Shown here piece by piece: positions 1,995 to 27,765 of a DNA stretch of 29,012 nucleotides (positions are counted from its first letter, which is position 1; each line of letters starts with the position of its first letter). The notes under the pieces were generated by a model. It saw only the letters and a program-made list of their open reading frames with translations. It did no database searches and had not been told where the DNA came from. The DNA lies in the IMG/VR virus record IMGVR_UViG_3300032271_001873, positions 1-29,012 of that record; one strand, written 5' to 3'. The DNA comes from a virus. Both the position numbers and the translations under genes were made by a program.

Positions 1995-2032
1995 ATGATA
2001 TACCACCTGCAGAATGACTTTTGTTTGTGATA

Positions 2033-2061: not shown

Positions 2062-2067
2062 TCACAC

Positions 2068-12539: not shown

Positions 12540-14195
12540 ATGCAATACTGGTATTCCGCCCAACTACGACAATATCGTCTACAGTTCATCCGAGCATTTA
12601 GCAATTTTTCGGTAAAAACCGGAAACGGGGGTCCAACCAACACTCCTGAGATCGTGCGGGTTCCTTGTCGTTATGGAGACCCTACTCGTATTGCTGCATC
12701 CATCGTTCGTGGAAACAGTGAGAACAAGGTCCTCAGTGTTCCATTCATCACCTGCTATGTTGACGGGATCTCAATGGCCCCATCTCGCAGGCAGGATCCC
12801 CAACTGGTGGTTCCGGTACAGGTCAATGAACGCAGGTATGACGCAGAAAAAGGTGCATATACCAACGAGATTGGAAACCGTTATACGGTTGAAAGATACA
12901 TGCCGGTTCCGTATGATCTTACCATGCAGGTAGATATATGGACCAACAATGAGGACATCAAGGAACAACTTCTCGAACAGATACTCGTTCTGTACAATCC
13001 AGCCATTGACATACAGACATCCGTCAATCCAATAGATTGGACGGTGCTTACCATAATAGAAATGATGGATTCCATAAACTGGTCTTCAAGGAGCATACCA
13101 GTTGGTACTGACAATCCTATCGACGTTGCCACAATGAAATTCAAGTTGCCAATCTGGATAAATCCGCCTGCTAAGGTCAAGAAACAAAGCATAATACATG
13201 AGATCGTGACCAACATCGTGCAGGGACAGAAGGATGAAAATGCCGTGGAATGGAACGAGTATGAATTCCTCGGCAGGAACATAACCACACCCGGCGATTG
13301 CGTGTTGCGTGTTGAACCAACGTCATCGAGCGTGTACTCCTTGATACTGTGCGATTCGTCAGGATCCACGATTGATCGTAATCTTCTTCCCACGGTGGTG
13401 TCGTCGAGCAAGGATCCTGTTCCATTCATTGGGTCGAGTTTTAGCGTAAACGGCATAACATGCAACATATCACATCAGACATTAACCGATGCGATTAACG
13501 ACATACGGTCATCCCTCGCAGGTAGTAATCTTAATTGTATGATATACAACAAGACGTCCATGCAGTTCTTTAATACCGATGGCGGCAATCTTGAATTTAA
13601 GGATATAGTTCCTGGAACGCTTGATTCTCTTGGAATATCAAACACCACATATCCAGGCGGAACCATGGCATGGTGGAGGTTGTTACAACTGTATGGCGAT
13701 ACAAAATATCAGGCTGACTACGGATCAAACGCAAGCCAGCTACGATTGAAGACCGTTGATGACATAGAACAGACCAACACTGACATAGTTGGATGGATAG
13801 ACCCAGATCCTATTGATCAAAACAAGCTCATCTGGACGATTGATCCTCAAAGCATTCCATACACGACATTGTCCCCAATTGACGCGATAGTCAATCCGTT
13901 AACAAGTGGCCCGGGCATAAATCTTCCATTGCCAGCCATTGGTGCAAGATATCTTCTTACCGAAAAACCGGCAGAACAGAGCGTAAGCTGGGGAACCATT
14001 GATGCCAACGAAAATGATATCGTTGAATTCAATGGATCAAATTGGACGGTCGTATGGACACCGTCATCATCAATCAACATCAACCAAGTCGTGGTCAACA
14101 ATCGCAGCAATCGGATGTATAGATGGTCAAACGGATACTGGGCACCAATCATCCATGAGAAATATCTTCCAGGATATTGGAGGTTGGCATTATGA
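12540..14195 (+). CDS. Tail sheath completion/stabilisation protein (T4 gp15-like), extended
   Basis: The N-terminal 210 residues follow the gp15 plan: an opening aromatic segment M-Q-Y-W-Y-S-A-Q-L-R-Q-Y-R, then V-R-V-P-C-R-Y-G-D-P-T-R-I, then P-F-I-T-C-Y-V-D-G-I-S, then M-P-V-P-Y-D-L-T-M-Q-V-D-I-W-T-N-N-E-D-I-K-E-Q-L-L-E-Q-I-L. T4 gp15 (272 aa) forms the hexameric ring that caps the sheath and tube and docks onto the neck. This protein has 551 aa; beyond about residue 230 it carries a beta-rich extension ending in W-rich repeats (F-N-G-S-N-W-T-V-V-W; M-Y-R-W-S-N-G-Y-W). AAGGTG precedes the ATG by about 10 nt. The stop overlaps the start of the polymerase-like gene. Confidence 0.75.
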   Translation: MQYWYSAQLRQYRLQFIRAFSNFSVKTGNGGPTNTPEIVRVPCRYGDPTRIAASIVRGNSENKVLSVPFITCYVDGISMAPSRRQDPQLVVPVQVNERRYDAEKGAYTNEIGNRYTVERYMPVPYDLTMQVDIWTNNEDIKEQLLEQILVLYNPAIDIQTSVNPIDWTVLTIIEMMDSINWSSRSIPVGTDNPIDVATMKFKLPIWINPPAKVKKQSIIHEIVTNIVQGQKDENAVEWNEYEFLGRNITTPGDCVLRVEPTSSSVYSLILCDSSGSTIDRNLLPTVVSSSKDPVPFIGSSFSVNGITCNISHQTLTDAINDIRSSLAGSNLNCMIYNKTSMQFFNTDGGNLEFKDIVPGTLDSLGISNTTYPGGTMAWWRLLQLYGDTKYQADYGSNASQLRLKTVDDIEQTNTDIVGWIDPDPIDQNKLIWTIDPQSIPYTTLSPIDAIVNPLTSGPGINLPLPAIGARYLLTEKPAEQSVSWGTIDANENDIVEFNGSNWTVVWTPSSSININQVVVNNRSNRMYRWSNGYWAPIIHEKYLPGYWRLAL

Positions 14196-14944
14196 CATTA
14201 TTATTTGATTCGAAAGATTCCATCAATTTCAAACGTTTCAGCCAGGTGTTTACTCCTGAAATACGCAGGGTTATTTCCGTGGTGAGGAAATATGGATTTG
14301 ATGTGCGAGTGGTCGGTGGTGCCGTGCGTGATTTCATCAGAGGACAACCTCCTCGTGATGTTGATTTTGCAACGGATGCCGAGCCTGCCGAATTGATATT
14401 CATCTTCGATCTTGAAGGTATAGTCTACGATGCCGGTGGAATCAAACATGGAACCATAAAAGCCGTCTTTGGAAAAGAAAAGATAGATGTTACCTCCATA
14501 ACCTATCGCATGAAGGTTTACAAGGGTGGTATCAAAATCGAGAGGCGGGTGGGATGGGAAAAAGACAGTAAAAGCAGAGACTTTACCATCAATTCCATGA
14601 GCATTGACCTTGACGGTCGAATCCATGACTACATGGGCGGAATCAAGGATTTAGAAAATTCAATCGTTCGTTTTTGTCCAGGTGCGGAGGAGCAAATACA
14701 ACAGGATCCAAATGTGATCATGAGGTGGTTCAAAGCCCTTACGTATTTTGACAATCCAAAATGGCCGAGTAAAGATCAGGAGATCATCGTTCGTGGCTTG
14801 CCGGGATTATCTTCCGTAAAAAATGATCGTCGTACACGTTTAATAATGGATAACATCGATCAGTCTCCAAACGGAGAAAAGGTTAAAAGGCTCATCTGCA
14901 AGCTAGGAGCCGCCAGGTACATTGGATTAACTTGCAAGGATTAA
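14192..14944 (+). CDS. tRNA nucleotidyltransferase/poly(A) polymerase homologue, head domain only
   Basis: This is a class II nucleotidyltransferase head. It has V-V-G-G-A-V-R-D (residues 40-47), the metal-binding D56-V-D58 in P-R-D-V-D-F-A-T, and the neck signature S-R-D-F-T-I-N-S-M-S-I-D. Full bacterial CCA-adding enzymes and poly(A) polymerases run to roughly 400 aa or more; this one is 250 aa and its C-terminal tRNA-binding body is largely missing. It could repair tRNA 3' ends or add nucleotides to RNA during infection, possibly with altered specificity. ATG 14192 overlaps the gp15 stop (ATGA) and is preceded by GGAGG at 8 nt, so it is translated with a virion gene. Confidence 0.8.
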   Translation: MTLLFDSKDSINFKRFSQVFTPEIRRVISVVRKYGFDVRVVGGAVRDFIRGQPPRDVDFATDAEPAELIFIFDLEGIVYDAGGIKHGTIKAVFGKEKIDVTSITYRMKVYKGGIKIERRVGWEKDSKSRDFTINSMSIDLDGRIHDYMGGIKDLENSIVRFCPGAEEQIQQDPNVIMRWFKALTYFDNPKWPSKDQEIIVRGLPGLSSVKNDRRTRLIMDNIDQSPNGEKVKRLICKLGAARYIGLTCKD

Positions 14945-14967: not shown

Positions 14968-15840
14968 ATGAATGATCAAGCAAATCTCACCAAAGACCTT
15001 ATCATAGGTGCATATACAAATTATGACTGGAGCCAGATCAAATACTGGGCTAACAGCATAGATAGGAGTGGATTCACCGGCGACAAGGCCATGGTGGTTT
15101 ACAATAGTGATCCAACAACCGTTCAGAAATTGATAGATCTTGGATTCAAGGTATGGGCATTCAATCAGGATCCTGTCACCAAGAATTTCTTCTGGCCCGA
15201 TCAAAAACTGGTCATTGTCGTTCAACGGTTCTACCATCTTTGGTACTATCTGAATCAGCTACCAACAGGAACATATCGATATGTAATAAGCACCGATGTC
15301 AAGGACGTGGTATTTCAACAAAATCCAAGCAAGTGGTTGGAAGAGAACCTCACAGGGCCTGATAAGCAGGTGGTTGCCAGTTGTGAAAGCATCAGATACA
15401 AGGATGAACCATGGGGAGATGACAATCTTAGGGGCAGTTATCCTGCATTGCACGGCATGTTACAAGATCAACCCATATGGAACTGCGGAGTACAAGCAGG
15501 TAGGATGGAAGCCATCAGGGATTTATGGCTGCAAATATGGCTGACTTGCCATGCAGGAGCAAGACATAATCCCGATCAGGCGGCGTATAACATCCTGCTG
15601 AATTTAACACCATGGAAATCAATAACAAGATTTGCCATGAGCGAAGATGCATGGGCATGCCAGGCAGGAACCACGGTTGATCCCACCAAGATAAATGGAT
15701 TTAGACCAAATCTTCTTGAACCTGAACCGGTATGGAGAGGTGGCATGGCACGGACCAGCATGGATATCACACATGCCATCCTGCACCAATGGGATCGGAT
15801 ACCATCCTGGAAATTAGAAATAGAAAAGAGGTATGGTTAA
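14968..15840 (+). CDS. Putative GT-A glycosyltransferase
   Basis: This 290-residue protein begins with a Rossmann-like nucleotide-sugar region (I-I-G-A-Y-T-N-Y-D-W). It contains Y-V-I-S-T-D-V-K-D-V-V-F at about residues 105-116, the D-x-x-D variant of the metal-binding DxD motif used by GT-A transferases. A later W-N-C-G-V-Q-A-G pattern resembles the N-x-G-x-x segment that often contacts the sugar donor in this fold. The acceptor and sugar are not evident. It is the first gene of the plus-strand cassette and has no Shine-Dalgarno sequence; its own promoter ends 6 nt upstream. The next gene follows at once (stop TAA then A-ATG). Confidence 0.62.
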   Translation: MNDQANLTKDLIIGAYTNYDWSQIKYWANSIDRSGFTGDKAMVVYNSDPTTVQKLIDLGFKVWAFNQDPVTKNFFWPDQKLVIVVQRFYHLWYYLNQLPTGTYRYVISTDVKDVVFQQNPSKWLEENLTGPDKQVVASCESIRYKDEPWGDDNLRGSYPALHGMLQDQPIWNCGVQAGRMEAIRDLWLQIWLTCHAGARHNPDQAAYNILLNLTPWKSITRFAMSEDAWACQAGTTVDPTKINGFRPNLLEPEPVWRGGMARTSMDITHAILHQWDRIPSWKLEIEKRYG

Positions 15841-15841
15841 A

Positions 15842-16822
15842 ATGAATGTTACGTTAGAATCACTGCATCAACAGCAGGAAGCTGTGTTGAAAAATCTTCC
15901 ATCAATTCCAGACTATCTGCCGGGTCGCAGCATCGTGACAAGCTGCTATAGGAATGAAATTCCAGGATCATACATACTCCTTAGTGAGCTTAAACGACTT
16001 GCTATCAGCTTACCAATTGAGGTGTTTTATAGAGACGGCGAGCTAGCCGATGGCGAGATTAGCGAGCTTACTTCTATCTGGCCAGATCGAATAGTTTTCC
16101 GAAAGATCCAGGCAAATGCGGCCGATTTCAAAGATCAGTGGGGGAATATAAAAGGATGGAGCACAAAGGTACACGCGATACTGGAAAGCCAATATTTGGA
16201 AAATCTTTGGATAGACGGTGACAATTTTCCAATAAAAAACTGTCTCGATCTATTCAATGATGATGAATATAAAAATAAAGGAAGCCTGTTCTGGAGGGAC
16301 GTGTATAGCATTGATCGGGCAGATCAATACTGGAGCGGATCTGACATGTGGAAGATATTCCAGGTTGGCCCAAATGACGGAGAGCCATTTGAAAGCGGTC
16401 AGTTTCTCGTGAACAAACCAATGGTGTGGGCACAGCTATCCATGATGAAACACTACACGGATAATTGCCAGATATACTATTCATTTGGCGGTGATGCGGA
16501 ATGCTGGAGGATGGCATGGCAATACGTTAGCATCCGTTCCGATGGTTACCATGCCAGGAGCAACTACAATTCAAGCGATCTCGTTCCGTATGGATTCATG
16601 CCTTATGGTCCTTTCCATAAAGGGGTACAAAATCAATGGCACAAATATGGCGGCGGGTCGGTGATGGTACAGAGAGACCGAAAGGGTCAAGAGCTATTCA
16701 ACCATCGAAACATTGATAAATTTCGATGGTCCGGTAATAACCCGTACAATGAAGACATTGCAAACGAAAGCACATACCACATGATCATGACCCATATAAA
16801 AACAAAATACGGCGCGGCATGA
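15842..16822 (+). CDS. GT71/MNN1-like glycosyltransferase
   Basis: The key stretch L-W-I-D-G-D-N-F-P-I-K-N (about residues 122-133), followed by L-F-x(7)-K-x-K-G-S-L-F-W-R-D, matches the DxD core of fungal-type alpha-mannosyltransferases (L-D-S-D-N-x-P ... G-x-x-F-W-x-D). Later, F-E-S-G-Q-F-L-V-N-K matches the E-S-G-Q element of the same family. Members transfer mannose or a related hexose from a nucleotide donor. The family is best known from eukaryotic Golgi enzymes, with scattered bacterial and viral members. ATG 15842 has AGAGG 10 nt upstream; ATG 15833 would leave only 1 nt and is rejected. Confidence 0.72.
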   Translation: MNVTLESLHQQQEAVLKNLPSIPDYLPGRSIVTSCYRNEIPGSYILLSELKRLAISLPIEVFYRDGELADGEISELTSIWPDRIVFRKIQANAADFKDQWGNIKGWSTKVHAILESQYLENLWIDGDNFPIKNCLDLFNDDEYKNKGSLFWRDVYSIDRADQYWSGSDMWKIFQVGPNDGEPFESGQFLVNKPMVWAQLSMMKHYTDNCQIYYSFGGDAECWRMAWQYVSIRSDGYHARSNYNSSDLVPYGFMPYGPFHKGVQNQWHKYGGGSVMVQRDRKGQELFNHRNIDKFRWSGNNPYNEDIANESTYHMIMTHIKTKYGAA

Positions 16823-17982
16823 TGGCAGAAATACTATCAAGGTTTAACTATCCTCACGACTGGGGATTCTATCGGGATCCAGCAAGGCCGGTGGATTTGC
16901 GTGTCATAAATTTTGAAAATCTATACGATTACCACACGATATGGAACGATGCCATACAGGTCAATCAGAACACCGTTCTGTTGATTGGTCCTCCTTTATA
17001 TGGAACGGCCGAATGGATCAAAAACAATTGTCGAATTGAGGATCAGAAAGGTAATCATCTTGATTATCGGGTGGTTGAGATGGACCGTGCATGTGTTACG
17101 GTGGTGATGACGAAAGGCTGGTGCGATTTCTTGGTTTTTCGAGACCCACATGGTCTACACACCATCATGACAAATCGTCAATCAATGGATTTTCTCGGTA
17201 AAAAGGTCATCGTCACCATCAGCAAGGATCATCCGATATCCTGGCTGAAACAATGGATAGATTATCATCGGGTGGTTCATAACGTTGACGGGCTATTATT
17301 ATACAATAACCAAAGCACGATATACACAAGCGAACATCTTTCATCCCAGCTTTCACGTGATGACATGGTCATAAAGGTGGTTGATTATGATGTACCGTTT
17401 GGAGTGATGGGAGGAGGAGACTGGGAGTGGCAGGGTCGCGAAGGCACGTATCTTCCGTGGGATAGCGATTTTAGCCAATATGTCATGTTAGAACATGCCA
17501 AGTGGAGATACCTACATTGTGCCAAACTGGCAATAAATGCCGATACCGATGAACTGATATACATCAATGGTGCATCGTTGGACGATCTTGCAAACTACTG
17601 CGAATCAAATGACGATTCGGTGTGGTTATACAATGGTACCTGGATAGAACCTATTGACAGCCGTGACGGAACGATAGCCAGCACGGTACCTTTTGATCAA
17701 CGGCAATTTGTCAATTACTGGCATACCAATCATAGCGACCAACGGGGCATAGGAGTGAAATGGTCACTAAACCCAGGACGTAACATGGGATATCAATGGC
17801 ATCTTCATAAGACGTTTGGACCACATAAATCAACCAATTTTATTGGATTTGGGCATTATCTTGCCATGAACACATCGTGGAGCTGGCCGAGAGATGGATA
17901 TACAGGGAATCGATCAACCTTAACGGAGTTTGACGAGATCAAGAAGAATTTAGAAATCTGGAACTCAAGGACGGGGAGATAA
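16819..17982 (+). CDS. GT92-like (DUF23-like) glycosyltransferase
   Basis: After an N-terminal region of about 125 residues with no clear family, the protein has V-I-V-T-I-S-K-D-H-P-I-S-W-L-K-Q-W-I-D-Y-H followed by V-D-G-L-L-L-Y-N-N-Q-S. This is the characteristic N-E-x-x-x-L-x-E-W-I-x-Y-H ... Y-x-N-N-S start of GT92/DUF23 galactosyltransferase-like enzymes, here with K-D-H in place of N-E. A later N-A-D-T-D-E segment (about 239-244) gives the DxD metal site, and W-S-L-N-P occurs downstream as in the family. The donor is probably UDP-galactose or similar, by family only. It overlaps the previous stop (ATGA). The N-terminal domain could define the acceptor. Confidence 0.65.
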   Translation: MMAEILSRFNYPHDWGFYRDPARPVDLRVINFENLYDYHTIWNDAIQVNQNTVLLIGPPLYGTAEWIKNNCRIEDQKGNHLDYRVVEMDRACVTVVMTKGWCDFLVFRDPHGLHTIMTNRQSMDFLGKKVIVTISKDHPISWLKQWIDYHRVVHNVDGLLLYNNQSTIYTSEHLSSQLSRDDMVIKVVDYDVPFGVMGGGDWEWQGREGTYLPWDSDFSQYVMLEHAKWRYLHCAKLAINADTDELIYINGASLDDLANYCESNDDSVWLYNGTWIEPIDSRDGTIASTVPFDQRQFVNYWHTNHSDQRGIGVKWSLNPGRNMGYQWHLHKTFGPHKSTNFIGFGHYLAMNTSWSWPRDGYTGNRSTLTEFDEIKKNLEIWNSRTGR

Positions 17983-17984
17983 TC

Positions 17985-18635
17985 ATGCGCGGCGCGATGG
18001 TAACCATACACGATGACAACTACAAGGATCTTGCTGATCTAACATGGACCAGGAATCGGGCTAGATATGCAGCAAGGATGGGTTATGATGCCATAGCCAA
18101 GACAACTGATTTTGAAGGAATCAACATAGGATTTTGGAAGATAAAGTTCATGTTGGAGGTGATGGCAGGCGGACGTCACGATGTTCTCCATTGGAGCGGA
18201 ACTGATACGATGGTGACCAATTTCACCATACCTCTATCTGAATTTCTGTATGATGGATACCATGTGACCATTGCCACGGATTTCAACGGAATACAAGCCG
18301 ATAGCTTTATCATACGCAACACGCCCGAAGGACGATCTTGGTTGCAGATGATCATGGATAAAATGCCCCAATATCTTAATCATCCATATTTTGAGCAAGG
18401 GGTAATGATGGAAACTTATCAGCAATGGTCACACGTGGTAAAGGTAGTCCCACAGCGATTCATCAACAGCTATTATTACGATCTCTACTCCATGAAAGGT
18501 GCTAAGAACAATCTTGATAAGCTAGGATTCAACGGACAATGGCAAAAAGGGGATTGGTTGCTGCATTGCCCTGATCACAAGATGGACGTACGAATGAACC
18601 TATTCAATCAGATCCTGCCCTTGGTGGTGGAATGA
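17985..18635 (+). CDS. GT34-like (GMA12/MNN10-type) glycosyltransferase
   Basis: The 216-residue protein has H-D-V-L-H-W-S-G-T-D-T-M-V-T-N near residues 65-79, replacing the W-L-D-x-D-A-L-x-M-N core of galactosyl/mannosyltransferases of this type. It is followed by A-T-D-F-N-G-I-Q-A-D-S-F-I-I-R-N-T-P-E-G-R-S-W-L, which closely follows the family pattern D-x-N-G-L-N-A-G-x-F-L-I-R-N-S-x-W-x-x-x-x-L. The first Asp of the DxD is replaced (S-G-T-D), so metal binding may differ. Ribosome site GGGGAG lies 6 nt before the ATG and the intergenic gap is 2 nt. The sugar and acceptor are unknown. Confidence 0.65.
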   Translation: MRGAMVTIHDDNYKDLADLTWTRNRARYAARMGYDAIAKTTDFEGINIGFWKIKFMLEVMAGGRHDVLHWSGTDTMVTNFTIPLSEFLYDGYHVTIATDFNGIQADSFIIRNTPEGRSWLQMIMDKMPQYLNHPYFEQGVMMETYQQWSHVVKVVPQRFINSYYYDLYSMKGAKNNLDKLGFNGQWQKGDWLLHCPDHKMDVRMNLFNQILPLVVE

Positions 18636-18636
18636 T

Positions 18637-19467
18637 ATGAGGATTTTTATCACTGGTTCAACTGGATTCATTGGTCGGAATCTTGTTGAGCATTATTCAG
18701 ATAAGGAAGTCTATGCATACAATCGCGGCAGCATCAAGCTTGAGCTGTCCATGTTCAAGCCCGATCTGATCATCAATTGTGCCGCAGAGATATACAATCC
18801 AAATCTCATGCTTGATTCAAATGTCATGTTGGTAAAGAATTGCCTTGATTGGTTGCAGATGAGCCCATCGACACGCATGATACAGATAGGATCGTCATCC
18901 GAATATGGTCCTGTTCCCCATGCTAGCGCGGAAACTGACCGTATAAATCCGATAGATATGTATCAGGCAACCAAGGGCATGGCAACCATACTATGCCAAG
19001 GACATGCAAGATCATATCAACATGACATACGCATCATCAGACCATATAGCGTTTATGGAAAATACGAGAAACCACACAGGTTGTTTCCTAGATTGTGGAA
19101 GGCATTCATGCTTGATCAACCGATGACGTTGTTTGACGGACAGCACGATTTCATCCACATAGAGGATTTCGTGAGAGGTGTGGACATTATCGCATCATCA
19201 ACGGATGCTCCGACAGGTGATATAATCAACATTGGATCGGGTTGCCAATATGGAAACTTTGAGATACTTGATCTGTTTGAAAACATCACTGGAAAAAAAG
19301 CTCCCGTGACAAGGATGGAAACCATGGCCAAGAAATTTGAAAGCGAGGTGTGGATGTGCAATACTACCTATGCATGGGAAAAATATGGATTTAGATGCCA
19401 GCACGACGTTGTATCCGGCATCAAACGATTCATTGAAACCGCAAACTATCAACCGGAGGTAGCATGA
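18637..19467 (+). CDS. NAD-dependent nucleotide-sugar epimerase/dehydratase (extended SDR)
   Basis: The N-terminus has the SDR dinucleotide fold G7-S-T-G10-F-I-G13. The catalytic set is present: S86-S-S with E-Y-G following, and Y109-Q-A-T-K113. A P-Y-S-V-Y-G segment after the active site and D-F-I-H-I-E-D-F-V-R-G later are typical of extended SDRs acting on nucleotide-linked sugars (GDP/dTDP/UDP-sugar epimerases, dehydratases or reductases). At 276 aa it is shorter than RfbB (about 350). Which step it performs cannot be told from the motifs. GGTGG lies 6 nt upstream of the ATG, and the stop overlaps the FkbM gene. Confidence 0.85.
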   Translation: MRIFITGSTGFIGRNLVEHYSDKEVYAYNRGSIKLELSMFKPDLIINCAAEIYNPNLMLDSNVMLVKNCLDWLQMSPSTRMIQIGSSSEYGPVPHASAETDRINPIDMYQATKGMATILCQGHARSYQHDIRIIRPYSVYGKYEKPHRLFPRLWKAFMLDQPMTLFDGQHDFIHIEDFVRGVDIIASSTDAPTGDIINIGSGCQYGNFEILDLFENITGKKAPVTRMETMAKKFESEVWMCNTTYAWEKYGFRCQHDVVSGIKRFIETANYQPEVA

Positions 19468-20174
19468 CACTACGCAGGCAGCTGATAACCAGCAAAAAGA
19501 ATACCGTGGAAATAACGTCAGATGATGCGACAGTTGAGCAGCATTTTGCTAATCCTGCAAGCTACGCAGATGTGGTTCTCAATGAATTCAACACTGATCG
19601 GTCATATGATCACATATTCCAAGGAGGTGAGGATCTTACCATACTTGATATTGGTGCAAACATAGGTCTATTCTCACTTTACATACATGAACGGGCAAAA
19701 AATGTATATGCCATCGAGCCAACTCCGGGACATTTTGGAATACTCTCAAAGCTAACCAATGGATACCCAAACATAACCTGCATCAATGCAGCCTTGCACA
19801 ACATCGACGGTCCCATTGATTTCTTCATCAATAATGAAAATAGCACCATGAACAGCACCACCAATCGTTATGGTGTAAAAACCACCGTGGATGGTGTAAC
19901 GATTGCATCATTGTTGGATAGATTAAATCTCAATCAGGTTGATTTCGTGAAATGTGATATTGAAGGCAGTGAAATGACGGCACTCACCGATGAAACGATC
20001 GGTGCAGTACGAGATAGGATACGCATATGGTACATCGAATGCCATGCCACGGACCACTCTCGCTGGCAGGAAAGCACCAGATACAATCGAAGCATGATGG
20101 CCACGATGTTTGTAAGGCAGGGATATCAGGTACATCTTCTGAAGAATGACACGCTGTATGCATACAAGGACTGA
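19464..20174 (+). CDS. FkbM-family SAM-dependent methyltransferase
   Basis: The SAM-binding motif I-L-D-I-G-A-N-I-G-L-F at residues 60-70 is followed by V-Y-A-I-E-P-T-P (motif II acid) and V-D-F-V-K-C-D-I-E-G-S-E. This is the order and spelling of the FkbM family, which usually O-methylates sugars or polyketides. Length (236 aa) is normal. In this cassette it most likely methylates the finished sugar or glycan. The ribosome site GGAGGT lies just before the ATG, which overlaps the preceding stop (ATGA). Confidence 0.88.
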   Translation: MTLRRQLITSKKNTVEITSDDATVEQHFANPASYADVVLNEFNTDRSYDHIFQGGEDLTILDIGANIGLFSLYIHERAKNVYAIEPTPGHFGILSKLTNGYPNITCINAALHNIDGPIDFFINNENSTMNSTTNRYGVKTTVDGVTIASLLDRLNLNQVDFVKCDIEGSEMTALTDETIGAVRDRIRIWYIECHATDHSRWQESTRYNRSMMATMFVRQGYQVHLLKNDTLYAYKD

Positions 20175-20175
20175 C

Positions 20176-20784
20176 ATGCACCCTACCATACGCAGGATCA
20201 TTGATATTACCTATCAGGAGCGGTTGAGCCATCTCAGCAGTTGCCTTAGCGCCTGGCCGATCATACATGAGATATACGATCGCAAATCCAAGGATGATGT
20301 TTTCATCCTTAGCAACGGCCATGCCGGGCTTGCTCTCTATTGTGAGCTGGAAGCAAGGCATGGAATTGATCCGATCATGCTATTGCACAAACATGGAATA
20401 CATCCAGGAAAAGATCTCGAAAATGGTCTGTATTGTTCAACCGGTAGCTTGGGTAGCGGGCTACCGATTGCCATTGGCCATGCCCTTGCGGATCGTGATA
20501 AAGACGTCTATTGTATGATATCCGACGGAGAAGCTGCTGAAGGCAGCATCTGGGAAAGCCTGCGATTCATACACACCGCTGGATTGAACAATCTGCATGT
20601 CTATGCAAACATCAACGGTATGAGCGCATATGAATATCTTGATGTTGATTATCTCATCAGAAGATTGGTTGCATTCATGCCTAGGATACACATACGGGTG
20701 TCAGATCCGCCAAGATTTCCATTTGCGGATGGTCTGTTAACCCATTATTATGTTCTCAAACCGGAGGATTATCAGTCGATATGA
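20176..20784 (+). CDS. Transketolase, N-terminal (TPP pyrophosphate-binding) subunit
   Basis: This 202-residue protein is only the first domain of a transketolase. It has S-N-G-H-A (H49), the G-S-L-G-S-G-L loop (90-96), and the TPP-binding S-D-G-E-A-A-E-G-S-x-W-E (116-127) followed by N-I-N-G. In ordinary transketolase (over 600 aa) this is fused to the Pyr and C-terminal domains; here the Pyr domain is the next gene. Split transketolases are known and move a two-carbon ketol unit. Beside NDP-sugar genes they could extend or branch a sugar. It is also shorter than usual for a stand-alone N-subunit (about 270 aa). ATG 20176 has AAGGA 5 nt upstream. Confidence 0.85.
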   Translation: MHPTIRRIIDITYQERLSHLSSCLSAWPIIHEIYDRKSKDDVFILSNGHAGLALYCELEARHGIDPIMLLHKHGIHPGKDLENGLYCSTGSLGSGLPIAIGHALADRDKDVYCMISDGEAAEGSIWESLRFIHTAGLNNLHVYANINGMSAYEYLDVDYLIRRLVAFMPRIHIRVSDPPRFPFADGLLTHYYVLKPEDYQSI

Positions 20785-21263
20785 GGAAGGAATGCATGGA
20801 TCTGCTATTCAATTCGATGGCAGAAAACGAACACATCGTGGTTCTAACCGCAGACCTTGGATTCGGGCTGTTAGATCGGATACGAGATTCTTATCCTGAT
20901 AGGTTCCACAACGTCGGTGCTGCTGAACAGTTGATGATAGGCGCGGCGGTAGGATTGGCAGAATCTGGAAAGATACCAGTATGCTATTCCATGAGCAGTT
21001 TCCTGTTGTATCGTCCATTTGAGATGCTGAGAAACTACGTCAATCATGAAAATGTTCCTGTTAAGCTGATCGGCAGCGGACGAGATCAAGATTATAGCCA
21101 TGACGGTATCAGCCACTGGGCGCACGACGACATGCTGGTACTCAATGCGTTACCAAACATTGAACCATATAGGCCAGTGGACATACGAGAACTAGAAGAA
21201 TCATGGCCAAACTTCATCTTCAGTGATCGTCCATCCTATCTCAACCTCACAAGGAAGATATGA
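20781..21263 (+). CDS. Transketolase, pyrimidine-binding (C-terminal) subunit, minimal form
   Basis: The 160-residue protein is the transketolase Pyr domain. L-T-A-D-L-G-F-G lies near residue 22. R-F-H-N-V-G-A-A-E49-Q-L-M-I-G-A-A-V-G-L-A carries the catalytic Glu that activates the thiamine ring. The usual third transketolase domain, present in most split C-subunits (about 300 aa), is absent. G-R-D-Q-D-Y-S-H-D-G-I-S-H-W-A-H-D-D matches the Pyr-domain region that contacts TPP and substrate. Its ATG overlaps the stop of the N-subunit (ATGA, GGAGG upstream), as expected for obligate partners. Confidence 0.85.
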   Translation: MRKECMDLLFNSMAENEHIVVLTADLGFGLLDRIRDSYPDRFHNVGAAEQLMIGAAVGLAESGKIPVCYSMSSFLLYRPFEMLRNYVNHENVPVKLIGSGRDQDYSHDGISHWAHDDMLVLNALPNIEPYRPVDIRELEESWPNFIFSDRPSYLNLTRKI

Positions 21264-22207
21264 GCAAGAAGGTCCTATACATCACAGGATGCCTTGGTTT
21301 CATGGGATATCATGTGACCAAGGCATGTCTGTCCAAAGGATGGTATGTCAGGGGAATAGATTGTGGTACATATGCCGCAAACTGGAATCTTCTTAATGAC
21401 CTGGATGCACATGAAAACTTCGTATTTGAGAAAAAAGACATCAACGATATCAACATGTTATATGACTGTGATTACTTCGTTAATACAGCAGCAGAGACCC
21501 ACGTTGATAACTCCATAGTTAGCAGTGATGTGTTCCTAAAAAGCAACGTGAACGGTATCCATAACGTGCTCGAGCTGATCAGATCAAAGAGCCGACACCG
21601 CATGCCAACCTTGTTGCATTTTAGCACGGATGAGGTATATGGAGACATAGTAGACGGTAGCCACATCGAAACCGATCTTCTGAAACCAAGCAATCCTTAT
21701 AGCGCAACCAAAGCAGCAGCTGACATGCTGATACAGGCATGGTCACGCACATATGGAATACCGTATGTCATCGTTCGTCCAACCAATAACTATGGCATCG
21801 GACAATACACGGAAAAATTCATACCCCATACCATAAAATATCTCAGTCTTGGAAAGAAAATTCCGTTGCATGACGCAGGAACACCAACAAGAACGTGGTT
21901 ACATGCAAGTGACACGGCATCGGCGATAATCACCATCATAGAGGCAGGCGTGACAAATGAGATATTCAACATATCCGGCAATCACGAGGAACAGAACATC
22001 GTGATTGCCGAGAAGATATTGGATCTCATGGAATTCACCGAAAACCATTTGGAGCATCTTGATCTCACCGTGAAACGGCCCGGGCAGGACGTTCGTTATT
22101 CAATTGATAGCAGCAAGCTTGAATCACTGGGATGGAAACCAATTGCTAATTTTGATTCAGAACTTAAAACGATAGTTGACTATTACAGGCGTAATTTCAT
22201 CTGGTAA
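21260..22207 (+). CDS. dTDP-glucose 4,6-dehydratase-like SDR
   Basis: The NAD fold starts I-T-G10-C-L-G13-F-M-G16. The catalytic triad context F-S-T-D-E-V-Y-G (T123, D124, E125) and Y147-S-A-T-K151 is that of RfbB/RmlB-type 4,6-dehydratases, where Asp-Glu drive water elimination. A-E-T-H-V-D-N-S-I and R-P-T-N-N-Y-G are also RfbB signatures. At 315 aa it is slightly short. It should convert an NDP-hexose to the 4-keto-6-deoxy form, the branch point for many deoxysugars. The ATG overlaps the transketolase stop. Substrate nucleotide (dTDP versus GDP/UDP) is inferred from the family. Confidence 0.88.
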   Translation: MSKKVLYITGCLGFMGYHVTKACLSKGWYVRGIDCGTYAANWNLLNDLDAHENFVFEKKDINDINMLYDCDYFVNTAAETHVDNSIVSSDVFLKSNVNGIHNVLELIRSKSRHRMPTLLHFSTDEVYGDIVDGSHIETDLLKPSNPYSATKAAADMLIQAWSRTYGIPYVIVRPTNNYGIGQYTEKFIPHTIKYLSLGKKIPLHDAGTPTRTWLHASDTASAIITIIEAGVTNEIFNISGNHEEQNIVIAEKILDLMEFTENHLEHLDLTVKRPGQDVRYSIDSSKLESLGWKPIANFDSELKTIVDYYRRNFIW

Positions 22208-22271
22208 GGTTGGTAGACAATCCGGTCCTTTTCACCAATAATTGAGCAAAATATCCTACTAGGTGGAAAGC

Positions 22272-23375
22272 ATGAAGGTTTTGATACCAATGGCGGGTCT
22301 TGGATCGAGATTCTCCAAGATAGGGATCAAGGATCCCAAACCCCTTATTGAGGTACAAGGCAAAACTCTCATAGAGCATAGCATCAATAGCTTTGATGTT
22401 GATGCTGAATTTATATTCATAACGAGACGATTTGAGAACCCAACACACAACAGGATTCTCAGCGAGCTGTTGCAACGCCTCCGGCCAACAAGCAGAGAGA
22501 TATGCATCGATCATCTCACCAGCGGAGCTAGCCAGACCTGTCTGGTTGCTAGGGAGCTCATCAATGATGATGAGCCATTGGTTATCTACAACTGCGATCA
22601 GATCATAAGATGGAATGCCCGGGAGTTTGTTGATTTCTGCAACGACAAAGATTGCGACGGCGCTGTTGTTCTACATACCAGCAGTGATCCAAAGAATAGC
22701 TTTGCCGACATTGATGAGGGCCGTATAAAAAGCATAGTGGAGAAAAAAGCCATCAGCAACAGCGCATTGATAGGGTTACACTATTGGAAACATGGACGTG
22801 ATTTCGTCCATAGCGCTGAAAAACTGATAGAACGGTTCCACACATCAGGGCAACCTGAATGCTATATCAGCGAAACCTACAACTATCTCATCGAAATGGG
22901 TAGGACCATACTGCCATATTTTGTCTCAAATAATGCCTACATTCCACTTGGTACACCTGAAGATGTTGCCAAGTACCAAGGAAAGATGAAGGAATTTTAT
23001 AGCGAAAAACCAAAGACGATTTTCTGTGATATCGATGGAACCATCCTTAAGCATGAACACACGATAAGCGACGTATTGATGGGTAACTCTCCAATGATAC
23101 TTGACGGCGTTCGTAGTAAAATGAACCAATGGGACAGCCAAGGTCATCGCATAATACTGGTCACGGCACGCAAGGAAAGCACACGTTCTACAACCGAAAC
23201 ACATTTGCGATCGATGGGCATAGCCTGGGATCAGCTGATCATGGGCGTGACAAACGGCGCAAGGGTTCTTATCAACGACAAGCTTTATGATGATGACAAC
23301 AACCGTGCATTTGCGGTAAACGTGATCACCAACGACGGATTTGATGGCATCAACTGGGAAGATTGCGGACTATGA
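22272..23375 (+). CDS. Sugar nucleotidyltransferase fused to a HAD-family phosphatase domain
   Basis: Residues 1-235 form a nucleotidyltransferase: M-K-V-L-I-P-M-A-G-L-G-S-R-F with K-P-L-I-E-V (the activating loop), a metal-site N-C-D-Q (about 107-110), and Y-I-P-L-G-T-P-E-D at the domain end. Residues 248-367 form a HAD domain with F-C-D253-I-D255-G-T and I-L-V-T-A-R. The pair suggests one polypeptide that dephosphorylates and nucleotidylates sugar intermediates, as needed in heptose-type routes, though the exact substrates are unknown. ATG 22272 is preceded by AGGTGG; the GTG at 22263 in the same frame lies within that region. The 64 nt before the gene hold no ORF and possibly a weak internal -10 (TATCCT). 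Confidence 0.82.
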   Translation: MKVLIPMAGLGSRFSKIGIKDPKPLIEVQGKTLIEHSINSFDVDAEFIFITRRFENPTHNRILSELLQRLRPTSREICIDHLTSGASQTCLVARELINDDEPLVIYNCDQIIRWNAREFVDFCNDKDCDGAVVLHTSSDPKNSFADIDEGRIKSIVEKKAISNSALIGLHYWKHGRDFVHSAEKLIERFHTSGQPECYISETYNYLIEMGRTILPYFVSNNAYIPLGTPEDVAKYQGKMKEFYSEKPKTIFCDIDGTILKHEHTISDVLMGNSPMILDGVRSKMNQWDSQGHRIILVTARKESTRSTTETHLRSMGIAWDQLIMGVTNGARVLINDKLYDDDNNRAFAVNVITNDGFDGINWEDCGL

Positions 23376-23704
23376 AAACCTTGAGATTAGATAGCATGGT
23401 CAGGGGATGGTTTGTTGGAGGTTTTGAACCGACCGCATACCACACCATGGATTTTGAGGTTGGATATCAAACACACGCCAAAGGAACCGTTGATCATCAT
23501 TACCATCCAGTGGTAAAGGAGATCAATTTGGTAGTATCAGGACGCATGCGCCTGCATGGAAAAGAACTGATCGAAGGAGATATCTTCATTCTTGAACCAT
23601 ACGAGATAACCAATCCCGATTTCCTTGAAGATACCTCCATTGTCTGCGTCAAGGTTCCAAGCATGAATGACAAGATACGGTTTGAGATAAAGGATCAAAA
23701 ATGA
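23372..23704 (+). CDS. Small cupin protein
   Basis: The 110-residue protein has the first cupin motif H43-Y-H45-P-V-V-K-E50-x5-S-G and a following beta-strand region with E-G-D-I-F-I-L-E-P-Y-E, the usual Gly-Asp turn before the second motif. H43, H45 and E50 would bind a metal. In the second motif the expected His is not evident, so it may be a partial site. Cupins in sugar cassettes are often epimerases, isomerases or ketoisomerases. This one is smaller than RmlC (about 180 aa). ATG 23372 overlaps the upstream stop (ATGA). Confidence 0.75.
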   Translation: MKTLRLDSMVRGWFVGGFEPTAYHTMDFEVGYQTHAKGTVDHHYHPVVKEINLVVSGRMRLHGKELIEGDIFILEPYEITNPDFLEDTSIVCVKVPSMNDKIRFEIKDQK

Positions 23705-24414
23705 GGATAGCCTTGCAGATAAGCGGAAGGTTACGCTTCACCGAAGACAGCCTTAATTCCATGCTAGGATCGATAATCGAAACTCTACAACCCGACGTGT
23801 TTTGTAGTTTTTGGCATGCTGAGAATGTTGATACCGAGTCAACCTATGAAAACATCATGCATCCTAAACTCATGGAACTAGAAACGCAATCGTTGGTAAG
23901 ACCATATTTGGATTCTTTATTTCCATCACAGGTATGGCCAAACATGCCAAGCATGAGCTACAAGTTCAATAGGGTGTCGCATGTCAGGAAGATGTGGGAA
24001 AAAGCCAACGGGTTCAAATACGATTGCGTTATACAGGCAAGGACCGATAACATATTCTTTGAGAGGCTCGACATTGATCGTTGCCAGATGGCACTTGATC
24101 AGGATCAGGTACTTTGCTGTAATCAATCCTGGACTCCAACTATTGACGGATATACAACGCAGCCACGGATGGTGGATAACTTCTATCTCGGTCCAAGAGA
24201 TCACATGGATCTTGCCAATGACACATTCTGGCACATACGCAGGATGGCCATTGATCTTGCTAACCAACGTCGCCATCACGAAATGAACACATCAGAAATC
24301 ATTGAGGATTATGTATGGAAAGAGATTGGTGTACCAATCGGTAGCCTTCCTGGAATTGGAACACACGGTAATTTTTGGTATGACATAGATAGACGAGAAA
24401 CGAAATGGAAATGA
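23701..24414 (+). CDS. Putative glycosyltransferase-like protein, family uncertain
   Basis: The 237-residue protein opens M-R-I-A-L-Q-I-S-G-R-L-R and contains Y-D-C-V-I-Q-A-R-T-D-N-I-F at about residues 108-120. The opening strand and the later R-T-D-N resemble a group of poorly assigned polysaccharide proteins in which R-x-R-x-D may bind the nucleotide sugar. Beyond this I cannot name a family. It lies between the cupin and a GT4-like transferase and overlaps the cupin stop (ATGA, with AAGGA upstream), so a role in the same glycan is likely. Evidence is mostly context. Confidence 0.5.
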   Translation: MRIALQISGRLRFTEDSLNSMLGSIIETLQPDVFCSFWHAENVDTESTYENIMHPKLMELETQSLVRPYLDSLFPSQVWPNMPSMSYKFNRVSHVRKMWEKANGFKYDCVIQARTDNIFFERLDIDRCQMALDQDQVLCCNQSWTPTIDGYTTQPRMVDNFYLGPRDHMDLANDTFWHIRRMAIDLANQRRHHEMNTSEIIEDYVWKEIGVPIGSLPGIGTHGNFWYDIDRRETKWK

Positions 24415-24418
24415 TGAT

Positions 24419-25381
24419 ATGAAGCTTCTTTATGTGGTGCATAGATATGCGCCTTTTCCCGGAGGATCCGAGATATACGTGCAAGGAATGGCGGAAGAGA
24501 GCTTGCGCAGGGGACACGAGGTTGCGGTATTTGCAGGAGAGCATCAAGGCAATCACAACGGTGTCATCGTGACGAGCGACCATTCAATACTCCTAAATAA
24601 CTGGGATCTAATAGTGGTCCATGGAGGTGATGTTTATGTACAAGATTTTGTTCTTTCCAATGCTAACCGAATATCTAGTCCTGTTCTTTATCTTCTTGTC
24701 CTACCGAGCAATAGTGCTGTCTGCGTGCAGGCTATGCATGATTGTGCATCCATTGGATGCAGCACCAATCAGGATTTCCAACACTGCCAGGAACACGGGG
24801 TTTCGTCCAAGGCGGTAAGGGTAAGGCACGGCATCACCTGGCATGATTGCATGGGCAAGCCAGGATTTAAACGTCGGCATGGGATCACAACAAGGATGTT
24901 CCTTAGCTGTGGTGGATACTGGCCAAACAAGGCCATGAGAGAGCTTGCTGCCACATTTGAATTGGCAAATCCGTCCAATGCATTGCTGGTAACCACCGGA
25001 TATGATAATCGCATGGATCTCATGCCAACGGAGAGCCATTTGATAAAACCCATGCTGATCAAGGATCGTAGCGAGGTATTATCCGCCATACATGATGCGG
25101 ATTGCCTGATAATGCACAGCCATCAGGAAGGATTTGGATTGGTATTGCTAGAAGCCATGCTCAATCAGACCCCATGGATAGCAAGGCGCATAGCAGGTGC
25201 TGATTTGATGAAACAATTTGGTCAGACCTATGATACTGATGGAGAGCTTATATACAGGATCAAGACCTTTGATAGGAAGGATTTTGATATTGAGGGAGCA
25301 TACAATCATGTGTCTCAAAATCATCTCATCAGCAACACCGTTGACGATATTGAGATTGCAGTCGGTTCCTTGTCAGCCTGA
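24419..25381 (+). CDS. GT4-type (GT-B fold) glycosyltransferase
   Basis: The N-terminal P-F-P-G-G-S-E-I-Y-V (about 13-22) is the donor-side Gly-rich loop of GT4-like enzymes. The C-terminal domain has S-C-G-G-Y-W-P-N-K and the signature H-S-H-Q-E-G-F-G-L-V-L-L-E-A-M (E-x7-E retaining motif). With 320 aa it is a compact GT-B protein. It is the last gene of the cassette and overlaps the convergent DUF5591-like gene by 9 nt. Cys-rich residues in the middle (C-V-Q-A-M-H-D-C-A-S-I-G-C ... H-C) are unusual for the family and might bind metal. The acceptor is unknown. Confidence 0.82.
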   Translation: MKLLYVVHRYAPFPGGSEIYVQGMAEESLRRGHEVAVFAGEHQGNHNGVIVTSDHSILLNNWDLIVVHGGDVYVQDFVLSNANRISSPVLYLLVLPSNSAVCVQAMHDCASIGCSTNQDFQHCQEHGVSSKAVRVRHGITWHDCMGKPGFKRRHGITTRMFLSCGGYWPNKAMRELAATFELANPSNALLVTTGYDNRMDLMPTESHLIKPMLIKDRSEVLSAIHDADCLIMHSHQEGFGLVLLEAMLNQTPWIARRIAGADLMKQFGQTYDTDGELIYRIKTFDRKDFDIEGAYNHVSQNHLISNTVDDIEIAVGSLSA

Positions 25382-26239
25382 CGACCTGCTCCGTAGTATC
25401 CGATCAACATAGTCAAACGGTTCCTTGCGGGGAGCATCACGTTTTAGATATCTGTTTTCGTCAGGAATGGATCCTGTGCGCGAAAGCATGTCACTGTGCG
25501 TGCCAACATTTTTGTTCCGTGGATTGAATATCTTGTCCTCAACAAACGACAGGAAACGTTTTGATCCGTTGTTTTGTATGAACCGTTTGATCACGTTGCC
25601 CAATATGTTGATGCTTTGATGATACGCCGATTTGTCAAACGGTGTTGATCGAGGCCCAGTCCCAAATAGTCGCTGCCAGTCTCTCTTGAACATGCCACCG
25701 GTGCGCTGGACGTTGTCCTTGAAAAGTCCCGGGTTGTCATATTGCGGAAAATCTGCCCACAATGACTGCGGAACTATGCCCAGAGGTTCGCTCACGGTGA
25801 CGAAGTACACCGGGTATTGATTATCATTTATGATCTTGTTGTAGCTCTTGTACAATCCTCGAGATGCGCCTGCCCACGGCTTGGTCTTGGCACAAGGAAC
25901 AAATGCAACCATTGAATATCGGTCTGGAACCTGATACGACGTTATCTCATCGTGCCAGGCTTTTATCTCTGGCTCTGCCATGAGATGCAGGGTTTCCCCT
26001 GGTGTATATGCGGTAAGTGACGGATCAAGAGATGGGTTTGATGCCAGGCTACGATCTAACAGGAATCGCCTGAATCGCGGCCAATCTTCGCGTGATATGA
26101 ATCCAGATGTTCCTAGCTGTCCAAGCTCAACAGGACTTAGCTTTGAGAATGCTAGGGTTGATTCTGCTGGAGAAAGTTCGTGCGCGGATTGAGGTTTAAC
26201 GGACTTGATCGAAGTTTCTAATATTTCTGATATTCTCAT
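25373..26239 (-). CDS. DUF5591/ArcS-like domain protein
   Basis: After an N-terminal region of about 110 residues with no recognised domain, the protein has V-A-F-V-P-C-A-K-T-K-P-W, then S-E-P-L-G-I-V-P-Q-S-L, then P-Q-Y-D-N-P-G-L. The pattern P-C-x-x-x-K-P ... S-x-P-L-G-x-V-P-x-E-L ... Y-D resembles DUF5591, a domain found in archaeosine synthase (ArcS) and related TGT-like proteins that act on 7-deazaguanine. The domain match is from memory and the function in phage is unknown; a link to modified guanine in RNA or DNA is only a hypothesis. The ATG start (26239) has no ribosome site. The opening M-R-I-S-E-I-L is, as I recall, common in T4-like phage proteins of unknown function. Confidence 0.55.
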   Translation of the reverse strand: MRISEILETSIKSVKPQSAHELSPAESTLAFSKLSPVELGQLGTSGFISREDWPRFRRFLLDRSLASNPSLDPSLTAYTPGETLHLMAEPEIKAWHDEITSYQVPDRYSMVAFVPCAKTKPWAGASRGLYKSYNKIINDNQYPVYFVTVSEPLGIVPQSLWADFPQYDNPGLFKDNVQRTGGMFKRDWQRLFGTGPRSTPFDKSAYHQSINILGNVIKRFIQNNGSKRFLSFVEDKIFNPRNKNVGTHSDMLSRTGSIPDENRYLKRDAPRKEPFDYVDRILRSRSSG

Positions 26240-26265
26240 GCAATATATCAATCATACCTAATAAG

Positions 26266-26565: not shown

Positions 26566-27765
26566 TCATAAAAATTTCAAATGTGCAGTGTTTATCCCAA
26601 TTCCTGCCAGGTAGTCCGCCGCGTTGCCAAGGCTGCTTGCGGTGTTTGACAGCTCCAGGTAACCATACCTGGACATGAAGCTAACGACCGGCTCAAAGGT
26701 TGACGGATCGATGATCACGCCAGAGCTGGTCAGCGGCACGTATGGGCAGTAATAGGCAGCAGCGTCAATCTCGCCTGGGCCCTTGTAACCAACGAGCACG
26801 TTGGTGTCGTCAGCAGCATACTGGTCAACATACACGCGCATGCTGTTGTTCAGGGTTCCAACAAACTTGGTGTTGGTTGGAGCCTCAAACGTTCCCTCGG
26901 TGGTACGAGCGAAAGCAGAGGTAGTTGCGCTCTGCAGGATCGTTAGGGCAGTTGGGGAAACAACAACCCAGTTACCAGCGCCACGACGTGTACGTGCAGC
27001 GATCAGGTTTGCTCCACGGTTGATGAGAACGGCCAGGGCGGCGTGCTCGTCACCAACATATGTAGCAGTACCAGAAACAGCACCTTGGTCGTAGGTTAGG
27101 GTGGTGCCAGCCAGGGTGCGCAGCGACACAAGAATCTCTTGGTCGATTTCTGCGGTGATTTCCTGTGCCAGCGCTGCCATGATCTCGGCCTCGATGTCAA
27201 TTCCTTGCTGAGCCTGTGCATCCTGTGCAGCCTCAAAAGTCCAACGAGCGGACAGCTTGCGCGTCTTGGCTTCGACGGTTTCCTTGAGGATCTGGATGTT
27301 CAGGCGCTTACCAGCAGTACCTTCAAGCACGCTCACTGGAGCTGCCTGTGGGTTGGTGCTGTTGCCATTGCCGCTATAGAAGCGAGCAATGTCAAACGGG
27401 CTCAGTGCTTCTGCACCAGCAACAACGCCACTTGGGGTACCAAATGTGTCGGCATAGCGAACGCGCAGTGTGTGGATCTGACCAACCGGGCCGCTCATTG
27501 GCTGCACGCCAATGATCTCGTTAGCGATCACTGTCGGCATAACACGACGGATGACCGGCAGGATGACCTTGTTTAGGGTGGCAACGTTGCCAGCGCTGGT
27601 GGCGCCAGGAGTGCTGCTCTCAAACAGGATTCCGCTCTTTGCTTGCAGATCCTTGCGTGTGTTCTCGAGGACAACTTCCATGACCTTCTTGCGATTGCCG
27701 GTTAGACCTTCGCAGAGGGCGGTCTTGGTTGCCGTCCAATGTGTCTCGAAGAGGTTCTTACTCAT
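26566..27765 (-). CDS. Major capsid protein (T4 gp23-like)
   Basis: The protein carries the gp23 signature V-I-R-R-V-M-P-T-V-I-A-N-E-I-I-G-V-Q-P-M (about residues 72-91), followed by S-G-P-V-G-Q-I, the most conserved stretch of T4-type capsid proteins. W-T-F-E-A-A-Q-D and the C-terminal Y-C-P-Y-V-P-L and R-Y-G-Y are also typical. It should form the hexameric shell. At 399 aa it is clearly shorter than T4 gp23 (521 aa), with the difference probably in the surface insertion domain and N-terminal propeptide. The region before residue 60 (L-F-E-S-S-T-P-G) may include a prohead-protease site, as T4 gp23 is cleaved near residue 65. AAGGAGC 7-8 nt upstream overlaps the scaffold stop, giving coupling. 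Confidence 0.9.
   Translation of the reverse strand: MSKNLFETHWTATKTALCEGLTGNRKKVMEVVLENTRKDLQAKSGILFESSTPGATSAGNVATLNKVILPVIRRVMPTVIANEIIGVQPMSGPVGQIHTLRVRYADTFGTPSGVVAGAEALSPFDIARFYSGNGNSTNPQAAPVSVLEGTAGKRLNIQILKETVEAKTRKLSARWTFEAAQDAQAQQGIDIEAEIMAALAQEITAEIDQEILVSLRTLAGTTLTYDQGAVSGTATYVGDEHAALAVLINRGANLIAARTRRGAGNWVVVSPTALTILQSATTSAFARTTEGTFEAPTNTKFVGTLNNSMRVYVDQYAADDTNVLVGYKGPGEIDAAAYYCPYVPLTSSGVIIDPSTFEPVVSFMSRYGYLELSNTASSLGNAADYLAGIGINTAHLKFL

Follow-up and report, generated by a model that had tools for sequence, protein, structure and literature searches.

A minimal split transketolase in a jumbo-phage sugar cassette probably serves ketosugar branching and lies in an exchangeable module

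Three classes of thiamine diphosphate (ThDP) enzymes in ketosugar branching were listed in a 2025 review: YerE-like enzymes, alpha-keto-acid dehydrogenase type 2 (aKADH2) pairs and split-gene transketolases (TKs) (PMC12247030). YerE-like decarboxylases act in yersiniose synthesis, with a preference for 4-hydroxy-2-oxo acids in the case of ErwE and the caryophyllose enzyme, while aKADH2 pairs belong to aldgamycin, paulomycin and kibdelomycin (PMC12247030). For the split-gene TKs of miharamycin and amipurimycin the branching role has only been proposed and never tested. The 13 TK branching candidates are all Streptomyces sequences, none of them tested, and TK branching of keto-sugars is explicitly named as an open question (PMC12247030). 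Here we analysed the complete IMG/VR virus record IMGVR_UViG_3300032271_001873 (29,012 bases, hereafter the window), a fragment of a T4-like jumbo phage. It carries a sugar cassette at 14968-25381 in which two adjacent genes, G and H, encode a minimal split TK. We consider it quite likely that this pair carries out C2-branching of a keto sugar, the product then presumably being an O-methylated 6-deoxyhexose; our confidence is lower for each further step.

The phage pair resembles the Streptomyces miharamycin and amipurimycin TKs in the proposed transfer of a hydroxyacetyl unit to a keto-sugar (PMC12247030). In contrast to those candidates, it sits with a set of RmlB-like, short-chain dehydrogenase/reductase (SDR) and methyltransferase genes, and its close relatives swap in the other two classes. 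The yersiniose and erwiniose systems (YerE/ErwE) and the aldgamycin, avilamycin and paulomycin systems (aKADH2: AviB1/B2, Plm8/9) also combine a nucleoside diphosphate (NDP)-4-keto-6-deoxy (or 3,6-dideoxy) hexose with a ThDP enzyme and a reductase, and in sister phages the slot of the window's pair is filled by enzymes of one or the other class. However, these systems take pyruvate or longer keto acids as donor, RfbH strips O3 in the yersiniose type, and the ThDP subfamilies differ from that of the window's pair. Branched sugars in bacteria and sugar clusters in phages are already known. The polysaccharide clusters of cyanophages and jumbo phages contain SDR epimerase/dehydratases, a cupin, a nucleotidyltransferase and several glycosyltransferases (GTs), but no ThDP enzyme, TK or branched sugar is mentioned for them (PMC7824862). 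No report of phage-encoded branched-chain sugar synthesis was found in the open-licence literature. What is new here is the viral minimal split-TK family, the swap of three classes, and the tie to one RmlB-like family.

The two TK genes are as follows.

G, 20179..20784, + strand: TK PP-domain subunit, 201 aa (PF00456 2e-6; the open reading frame (ORF) is open from 20146)
H, 20781..21263, + strand: TK Pyr-domain subunit, 160 aa (PF02779 8.5e-18; 6yaj E 2.6e-19)

The start of G is probably 20179 rather than 20146, because the homologues begin at the window's residue 12. The PP and Pyr ThDP domains lie on two chains from adjacent genes, as in split-gene TKs. The AlphaFold2 (AF2) model of G (pLDDT 93.7) has the split TK 6yak as its best PDB match (TM-score 0.77 by query length), so this subunit is predicted to fold as a split TK. 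This known enzyme, from Carboxydothermus hydrogenoformans (ChTK, 6yaj/6yak), likewise has its PP and Pyr domains on two chains (PMC7661550). Its Mg/ThDP residues Asp, Glu, Asn and His and the Glu/His of the Pyr domain align with the phage pair, whereas sequence identity is low and its chains are larger (309+341 aa versus 201+160 aa). In G, residues H48, H75, D116-G117-E118, N146 and H189 are invariant in 44 homologues; in H, residues E49, H112 and R158 are invariant in 20 sequences. In the 6yak/6yaj alignments most of them fall on ThDP, metal or substrate residues of ChTK: Asp-Gly-Glu and Asn of the PP subunit correspond to metal/ThDP residues, and E49 and H112 of the Pyr subunit to the catalytic Glu and the substrate His. 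H75 aligns with the His of the HP motif in 6yak, which is the TK-type His (E. coli H100 equivalent) and not the DXS-type residue.

ChTK-C carries a C-terminal domain at residues 164-312 (PMC7661550). The phage Pyr subunit stops where this domain would start: H ends at residue 160, its homologues are 149-186 aa long, and the C-terminal (TKC) domain after Pyr is lacking. Because most of the invariant residues match cofactor and substrate residues of ChTK, the G+H pair looks catalytically competent, lacking only the third domain. With 361 residues over two chains it is a very small TK. A first reading of this DNA made from the letters alone (hereafter the sequence-only reading) had described a split minimal TK, and this description stands, with a 201-aa PP and a 160-aa Pyr subunit, no third domain and conserved cofactor residues. 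Unlike the C. hydrogenoformans TK, which serves primary metabolism, the phage pair lies in a sugar-nucleotide cluster. The other genes of the cassette are listed below.

A, 14968..15840, + strand: probable GT-A glycosyltransferase, 290 aa (weak PLOD-GT match, E 0.009; synteny in relatives)
B, 15833..16822, + strand: GT71-like (Mannosyl_trans3) glycosyltransferase (PF11051 2.4e-19, above cut-off, 70.2 vs 22 bits)
C, 16819..17982, + strand: GT92-like glycosyltransferase, assigned via relatives (PF01697 in 5/7 family members, best 2.5e-9)
D, 17985..18635, + strand: GT34-like glycosyltransferase, left edge of the exchangeable slot (PF05637 1.2e-9, 38.7 vs 23 bits)
E, 18637..19467, + strand: SDR epimerase/reductase (PF01370 1.9e-32)
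F, 19464..20174, + strand: FkbM-type methyltransferase (PF05050 2.3e-17)
I, 21260..22207, + strand: RmlB-like NDP-glucose 4,6-dehydratase, right edge of the exchangeable slot (2hun E 5.9e-69)
J, 22263..23375, + strand: sugar nucleotidyltransferase fused to a HAD phosphatase (PF00483 + HAD; 4evw 1e-15)
K, 23363..23704, + strand: small cupin-like protein (phrog_24762 2.9e-30, a family without known function; cupin from sequence only)
L, 23701..24414, + strand: probable GT-A glycosyltransferase (AF2 pLDDT 73.7; Foldseek to GT6 enzymes)
M, 24419..25381, + strand: GT4-type glycosyltransferase (PF13692 1e-8; EGFGLVLLE motif)

The gene order in the window is A B C D [E F G H] I J K L M. A relative with a 95% identical capsid protein, the 452-kb phage L003, has A B C D [RfbH, E1-alpha-like, E1-beta-like, SDR] I x L M. 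The shared genes are 71 (A), 70 (B), 62 (C), 73 (D), 62 (I), 53 (L) and 71% (M) identical to those of the window. The RfbH of L003 scores above the cut-off of NCBIfam NF011936, its E1-dehydrogenase-alpha-like protein of 208 aa matches PF00676 (54 bits vs 22), and the E1-beta/Pyr protein has 181-193 aa. In another relative, L313, the order is A B C D [RfbH, YerE/acetolactate-synthase-like enzyme, acetaldehyde dehydrogenase, 4-hydroxy-2-oxovalerate aldolase] before the contig ends. RfbH, the acetaldehyde dehydrogenase and the aldolase are each above cut-off, and the 619-aa ThDP enzyme is under the acetolactate-synthase cut-off. Genes E to H thus form an exchangeable unit, a proposed branching module, whose flanking cassette genes are kept. 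Since the three ThDP classes of the review (PMC12247030) alternate in one slot, the exchange points to branched sugars. Comparing relatives for block exchange was a check that the sequence-only reading had proposed, and the methylated, perhaps two-carbon-branched deoxysugar that it had suggested is now well supported by the three alternative enzyme sets. Its complete route was an overstatement, given that J and K are absent from five sister cassettes. These five (L082, L083, L084, L086 and L155) have A-I, L and M at the same place, so that J-K is an optional module and an essential role for it was ruled out. A partial cassette with only A, B, C and M was found in L006 (518 kb). In the capsid-gene neighbourhoods of Phosso, Atu_ph07 and other capsid relatives the cassette was absent; the likeness of the first two to the window lies in their T4-like jumbo virion genes.

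The association of the TK pair with sugar genes was counted at loci from IMG/VR, deduplicated at 95% identity, with neighbours taken within 5 kb. Among 66 TK-pair loci from the best-80 lists, the RmlB-like gene I was present in 54, an SDR in 55, a methyltransferase in 42 and RfbH in 8. The E1-pair loci (n=59) had I in 55, an SDR in 55 and RfbH in 50, and the YerE-like loci (n=37) had I in 30, an SDR in 32, an aldehyde dehydrogenase in 31, an aldolase in 31 and RfbH in 17. A reverse test was started from I alone. Of its best 80 viral relatives, 58 had flanks of 2.5 kb or more on either side, and a ThDP enzyme of one of the three classes lay within about 5 kb in 53 of the 58 (22 TK, 21 YerE-like and 10 E1). 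As a baseline, only one of 83 capsid-anchored loci (958 kb) had both, and that one was L003. In some TK loci, such as L120, the TK pair, SDR, RfbH (confirmed by NCBIfam in L120) and RmlB stand together, which is a yersiniose-like set with TK in the place of YerE. In the window too, the ThDP enzyme is encoded with genes for forming and reducing an NDP-ketosugar, as in ketosugar branching. It is on balance probable that bacterial viruses have a general, modular branched-sugar system, in which three ThDP classes are interchangeable around one dedicated RmlB-like dehydratase and the split TK is the viral hydroxyacetyl-adding version.

Several points weigh against the branched-sugar reading. The viral counts come from best-80 lists, and such samples are biased to close relatives. 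Five close relatives of I with full flanks (L372, L380, L403, L413 and L416) have no recognised ThDP enzyme nearby. I itself scores under the cut-off of NCBIfam TIGR01181, dTDP-glucose 4,6-dehydratase (295.4 vs 365.1 bits), and is therefore treated as RmlB-like. In the GT34-like D, the second Asp of the DxD motif is found in 69/69 homologues, with E or G at the first position. The association does not show which ketone is attacked, nor whether the acceptor is an NDP sugar or a finished glycan, and the branched-sugar chemistry and product are proposals drawn from sequence. Several of the five loci just named have an RfbH-like gene and may use another branching or aminating enzyme. Two further loci, L220 and L221, have two TK pairs each, and L288 (5724-11072) has an E1-type pair and a TK pair next to one RmlB and RfbH; each of these perhaps makes two different branches.

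Profile scans found at least 343 relatives of the TK pair in IMG/VR, whereas 11.3 million genome contigs yielded only 37. In a tree built from 104 concatenated TK pairs, 29 rows, most of them from Patescibacteria and Omnitrophota, formed one clade, separate from another made up of 69 viral rows and 6 metagenome-assembled genome (MAG) contigs. The window's pair falls within a subclade of 54 rows, all viral, and a recent transfer of this pair from cells was ruled out by this position. The minimal split TK is a mainly viral family, distinct from the Patescibacteria/Omnitrophota clade. The cellular clade (L115-L149) has short split TKs of about 240 + 166 aa. In both cellular loci inspected (L123 and L132) a GT2-like gene directly follows the TK pair; that of L132 scores as a polyprenyl-phosphate sugar transferase of the PgfS/ArnC type, and the adjoining SDR is RmlB/LegB-like. 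The MAG contigs L114, L119, L120, L125 and L127 in the viral clade carry the labels Planctomycetaceae, Euryarchaeota, Maricaulis, Thaumarchaeota and Alphaproteobacteria, and they are probably mis-binned phage contigs.

What the sequences show is the gene content, the identity of the domains, the conservation of catalytic residues, the exchange of the module and its association with RmlB and SDR genes. The following route is proposed for the cassette, in which we infer every reaction, donor, branch position, order and target, with C4 as the most likely branch point. I would turn NDP-glucose, host-derived or made by J, into an NDP-4-keto-6-deoxyhexose. G+H would then take a two-carbon hydroxyacetyl unit from hydroxypyruvate or a ketose and add it to the ketone of the ring, giving a tertiary-alcohol branch. 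The remaining ketone, in the side chain or the ring, would be reduced by the SDR E, and the product would be O-methylated by F. Five to six GTs (A, B, C, D, M and probably L) would build and attach an oligosaccharide carrying the branched sugar. A further sugar may be added or activated by the optional J-K pair. RfbH, the C3 dehydrase that accompanies the other two ThDP classes, is absent from the window cassette, so C3 is probably not deoxygenated. Most TK loci lack it as well, so the TK product probably retains its O3, and this oxygen may be what the methyltransferase caps. In L313, the neighbouring aldolase and aldehyde dehydrogenase would supply a 4-hydroxy-2-oxo acid, a donor type that ErwE uses. 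At least 66 distinct viral TK loci are added here, with swaps against two better-known branching classes. If the proposal is right, the natural swaps are the first comparative evidence for ketosugar branching by TKs, and the glycan would vary between sister phages by module swapping. Because these swaps occur in one slot, the predictions for substrate and product are specific and testable. Jumbo phages would encode and exchange routes to rare sugars, presumably varying the glycan on themselves or on the host.

The TK pair might instead be a metabolic helper that feeds the pentose-phosphate pathway or supplies a ketose precursor, with glycan genes as coincidental neighbours. It is a true TK relative with the TK-type His (H75), and surveys list TK as a viral auxiliary gene (PMC8319345). 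However, its slot is taken in relatives by E1-like and YerE-like ThDP enzymes without a pentose-phosphate role, and the RmlB-like dehydratase adjoins it in 54/66 distinct TK loci. The cellular clade also appears glycan-linked, with its GT2-like neighbour at both inspected loci (polyprenyl-transferase-like in L132) and the RmlB/LegB-like SDR. We consider a metabolic role improbable. Decoration of phage DNA by the cassette GTs is very improbable and was set aside. T4-like phages glucosylate hydroxymethyl-cytosine, and the cassette does encode several GTs. But no PF00303 thymidylate-synthase/dCMP-hydroxymethylase protein was found in the 452-kb L003, which has a complete E1-type cassette (its record may be incomplete), and the use of an NDP-branched sugar on DNA would be without precedent. 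To our knowledge, GT71, GT92, GT34 and GT4 are not among the DNA-GT types.

With branching of a keto sugar as the preferred role, the target of the glycan was considered. The chance that the oligosaccharide is placed on the virion, on capsid, sheath or fibre proteins, is somewhat below even. In this lineage the cassette has virion genes around it, the tail stabiliser on one side and the capsid gene on the other, a placement that favours late expression and virion decoration; the cassette includes no flippase or polymerase, and virion glycosylation is known in mycobacteriophages, as cited in PMC12619734. Yet in other phages the genes next to this module are for the most part helicases, metabolic genes and GTs, by which a virion target was ruled out as a general rule, and no protein acceptor could be identified. 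Modification of a host surface polysaccharide during infection, for superinfection exclusion, is a tentative reading that we judge only slightly less likely. The known bacterial uses of such sugars are in lipopolysaccharide/O-antigen (PMC12247030, PMC4753412), and the sugar clusters of jumbo cyanophages were explained in this way (PMC7824862). Against it, Wzx/Wzy/ligase genes are missing from the cassette, and L006, with its partial cassette, has no PF02397 protein. L003 does encode a single initiating transferase of the polyprenyl-phosphate type (PF02397) at a distance of about 115 kb, so a lipid-linked route is possible. In the 452-kb relative (L446, G001:C1:70000-86000), an apparent CTP synthase, PRPP synthetase, ppGpp-hydrolase-like HD protein and polyprenyl-phosphate sugar transferase were observed close together.

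The assignments of the remaining cassette genes were supported to different degrees. Pfam matches bore out most of the families named from sequence: Mannosyl_trans3/GT71, GT34, FkbM methyltransferase, Transketolase_N, Transket_pyr, RmlB/Epimerase SDRs, NTP_transferase with HAD, and GT4-type. The GT92 assignment of C is supported only through its relatives, as the window's own copy has no PF01697 match. For K there was no Pfam match, and the cupin assignment is kept as a sequence-based one. The motifs are well conserved: TDxKDV of A is invariant across 7 homologues, DxD of B is present in 8/8, and NADTDEL of C is invariant, with DxD kept in all homologues. E has YxxxK in 62/62 and GxxGxxG in 61/61 homologues, F has DxGxNxG in 45/45, and the active-site motifs STDEVYG and YxxxK of I are found in 80/80. 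L has an invariant QARxDN motif and no Pfam match; Foldseek placed its AF2 model with GT6 enzymes (prob 1.0) at a TM-score of only 0.4-0.5, which gives modest confidence. No match was returned when profiles of A, C and L were compared with the PDB, so A and L are assigned on motif or fold only. Pfam detected no initiating transferase, flippase or polymerase of a Wzx/Wzy-type locus among the 13 cassette genes.

The cassette is enclosed by virion genes, and its nearest neighbours are listed here.

12540..14195, + strand: gp15-like tail sheath stabiliser (PF16724 2.4e-23)
14177..14944, + strand: CCA-adding/PolyA_pol head protein (PF01743 1.3e-26)
25373..26251, - strand: DUF5591 protein (PF17884 1.2e-6)
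26566..27765, - strand: gp23-like major capsid protein (PF07068 3e-97)

The cassette genes had been counted as twelve, and 13 ORFs were found from 14968 to 25381. All are on the + strand with no main ORF on the other, and, with one exception, the junctions are about -13 to +4 nt, so almost all the genes abut or overlap by a few bases, as had been described. The exception is a gap of 55-64 nt between I and J. The placement between a virion block and the capsid block was also correct, with PF16724 and the CCA/PolyA_pol gene (ending at 14944) on one side and PF07068 on the other, beyond the DUF5591 gene on the opposite strand. The claim of one promoter found no support. Promoter-like matches in the window numbered 27, compared with 32.8 expected from shuffles, the T4 late-promoter word was not enriched, and the + strand genes upstream continue directly into the cassette. 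With no surplus of such sites, a single promoter was dropped as a supported claim.

The virion genes of the window (gp23-type capsid, scaffold, sheath and gp15-like stabiliser) are of the T4-like jumbo-phage type. The capsid protein is 78% identical to that of Sinorhizobium phage Phosso (469 kb) and 67% to that of Agrobacterium phage Atu_ph07 (490 kb), the nearest cultured relatives by capsid. The contigs of IMG/VR relatives with capsids 84-95% identical measure 450-543 kb. Near the window's left end, a putative PP-loop protein (SGGxDS; 13-1008, +), a 2OG-dioxygenase-like ORF (956-1516, -) and a protein with an apparent Rieske-type CxHR...CxxH motif (2014-3114, +) are atypical phage cargo. The 1348-aa ORF at 4771-8817 (-) was taken as the tail sheath protein; its length is extreme for a sheath, and a large Gly/Ser/Thr-rich insertion apparently lies in its middle.

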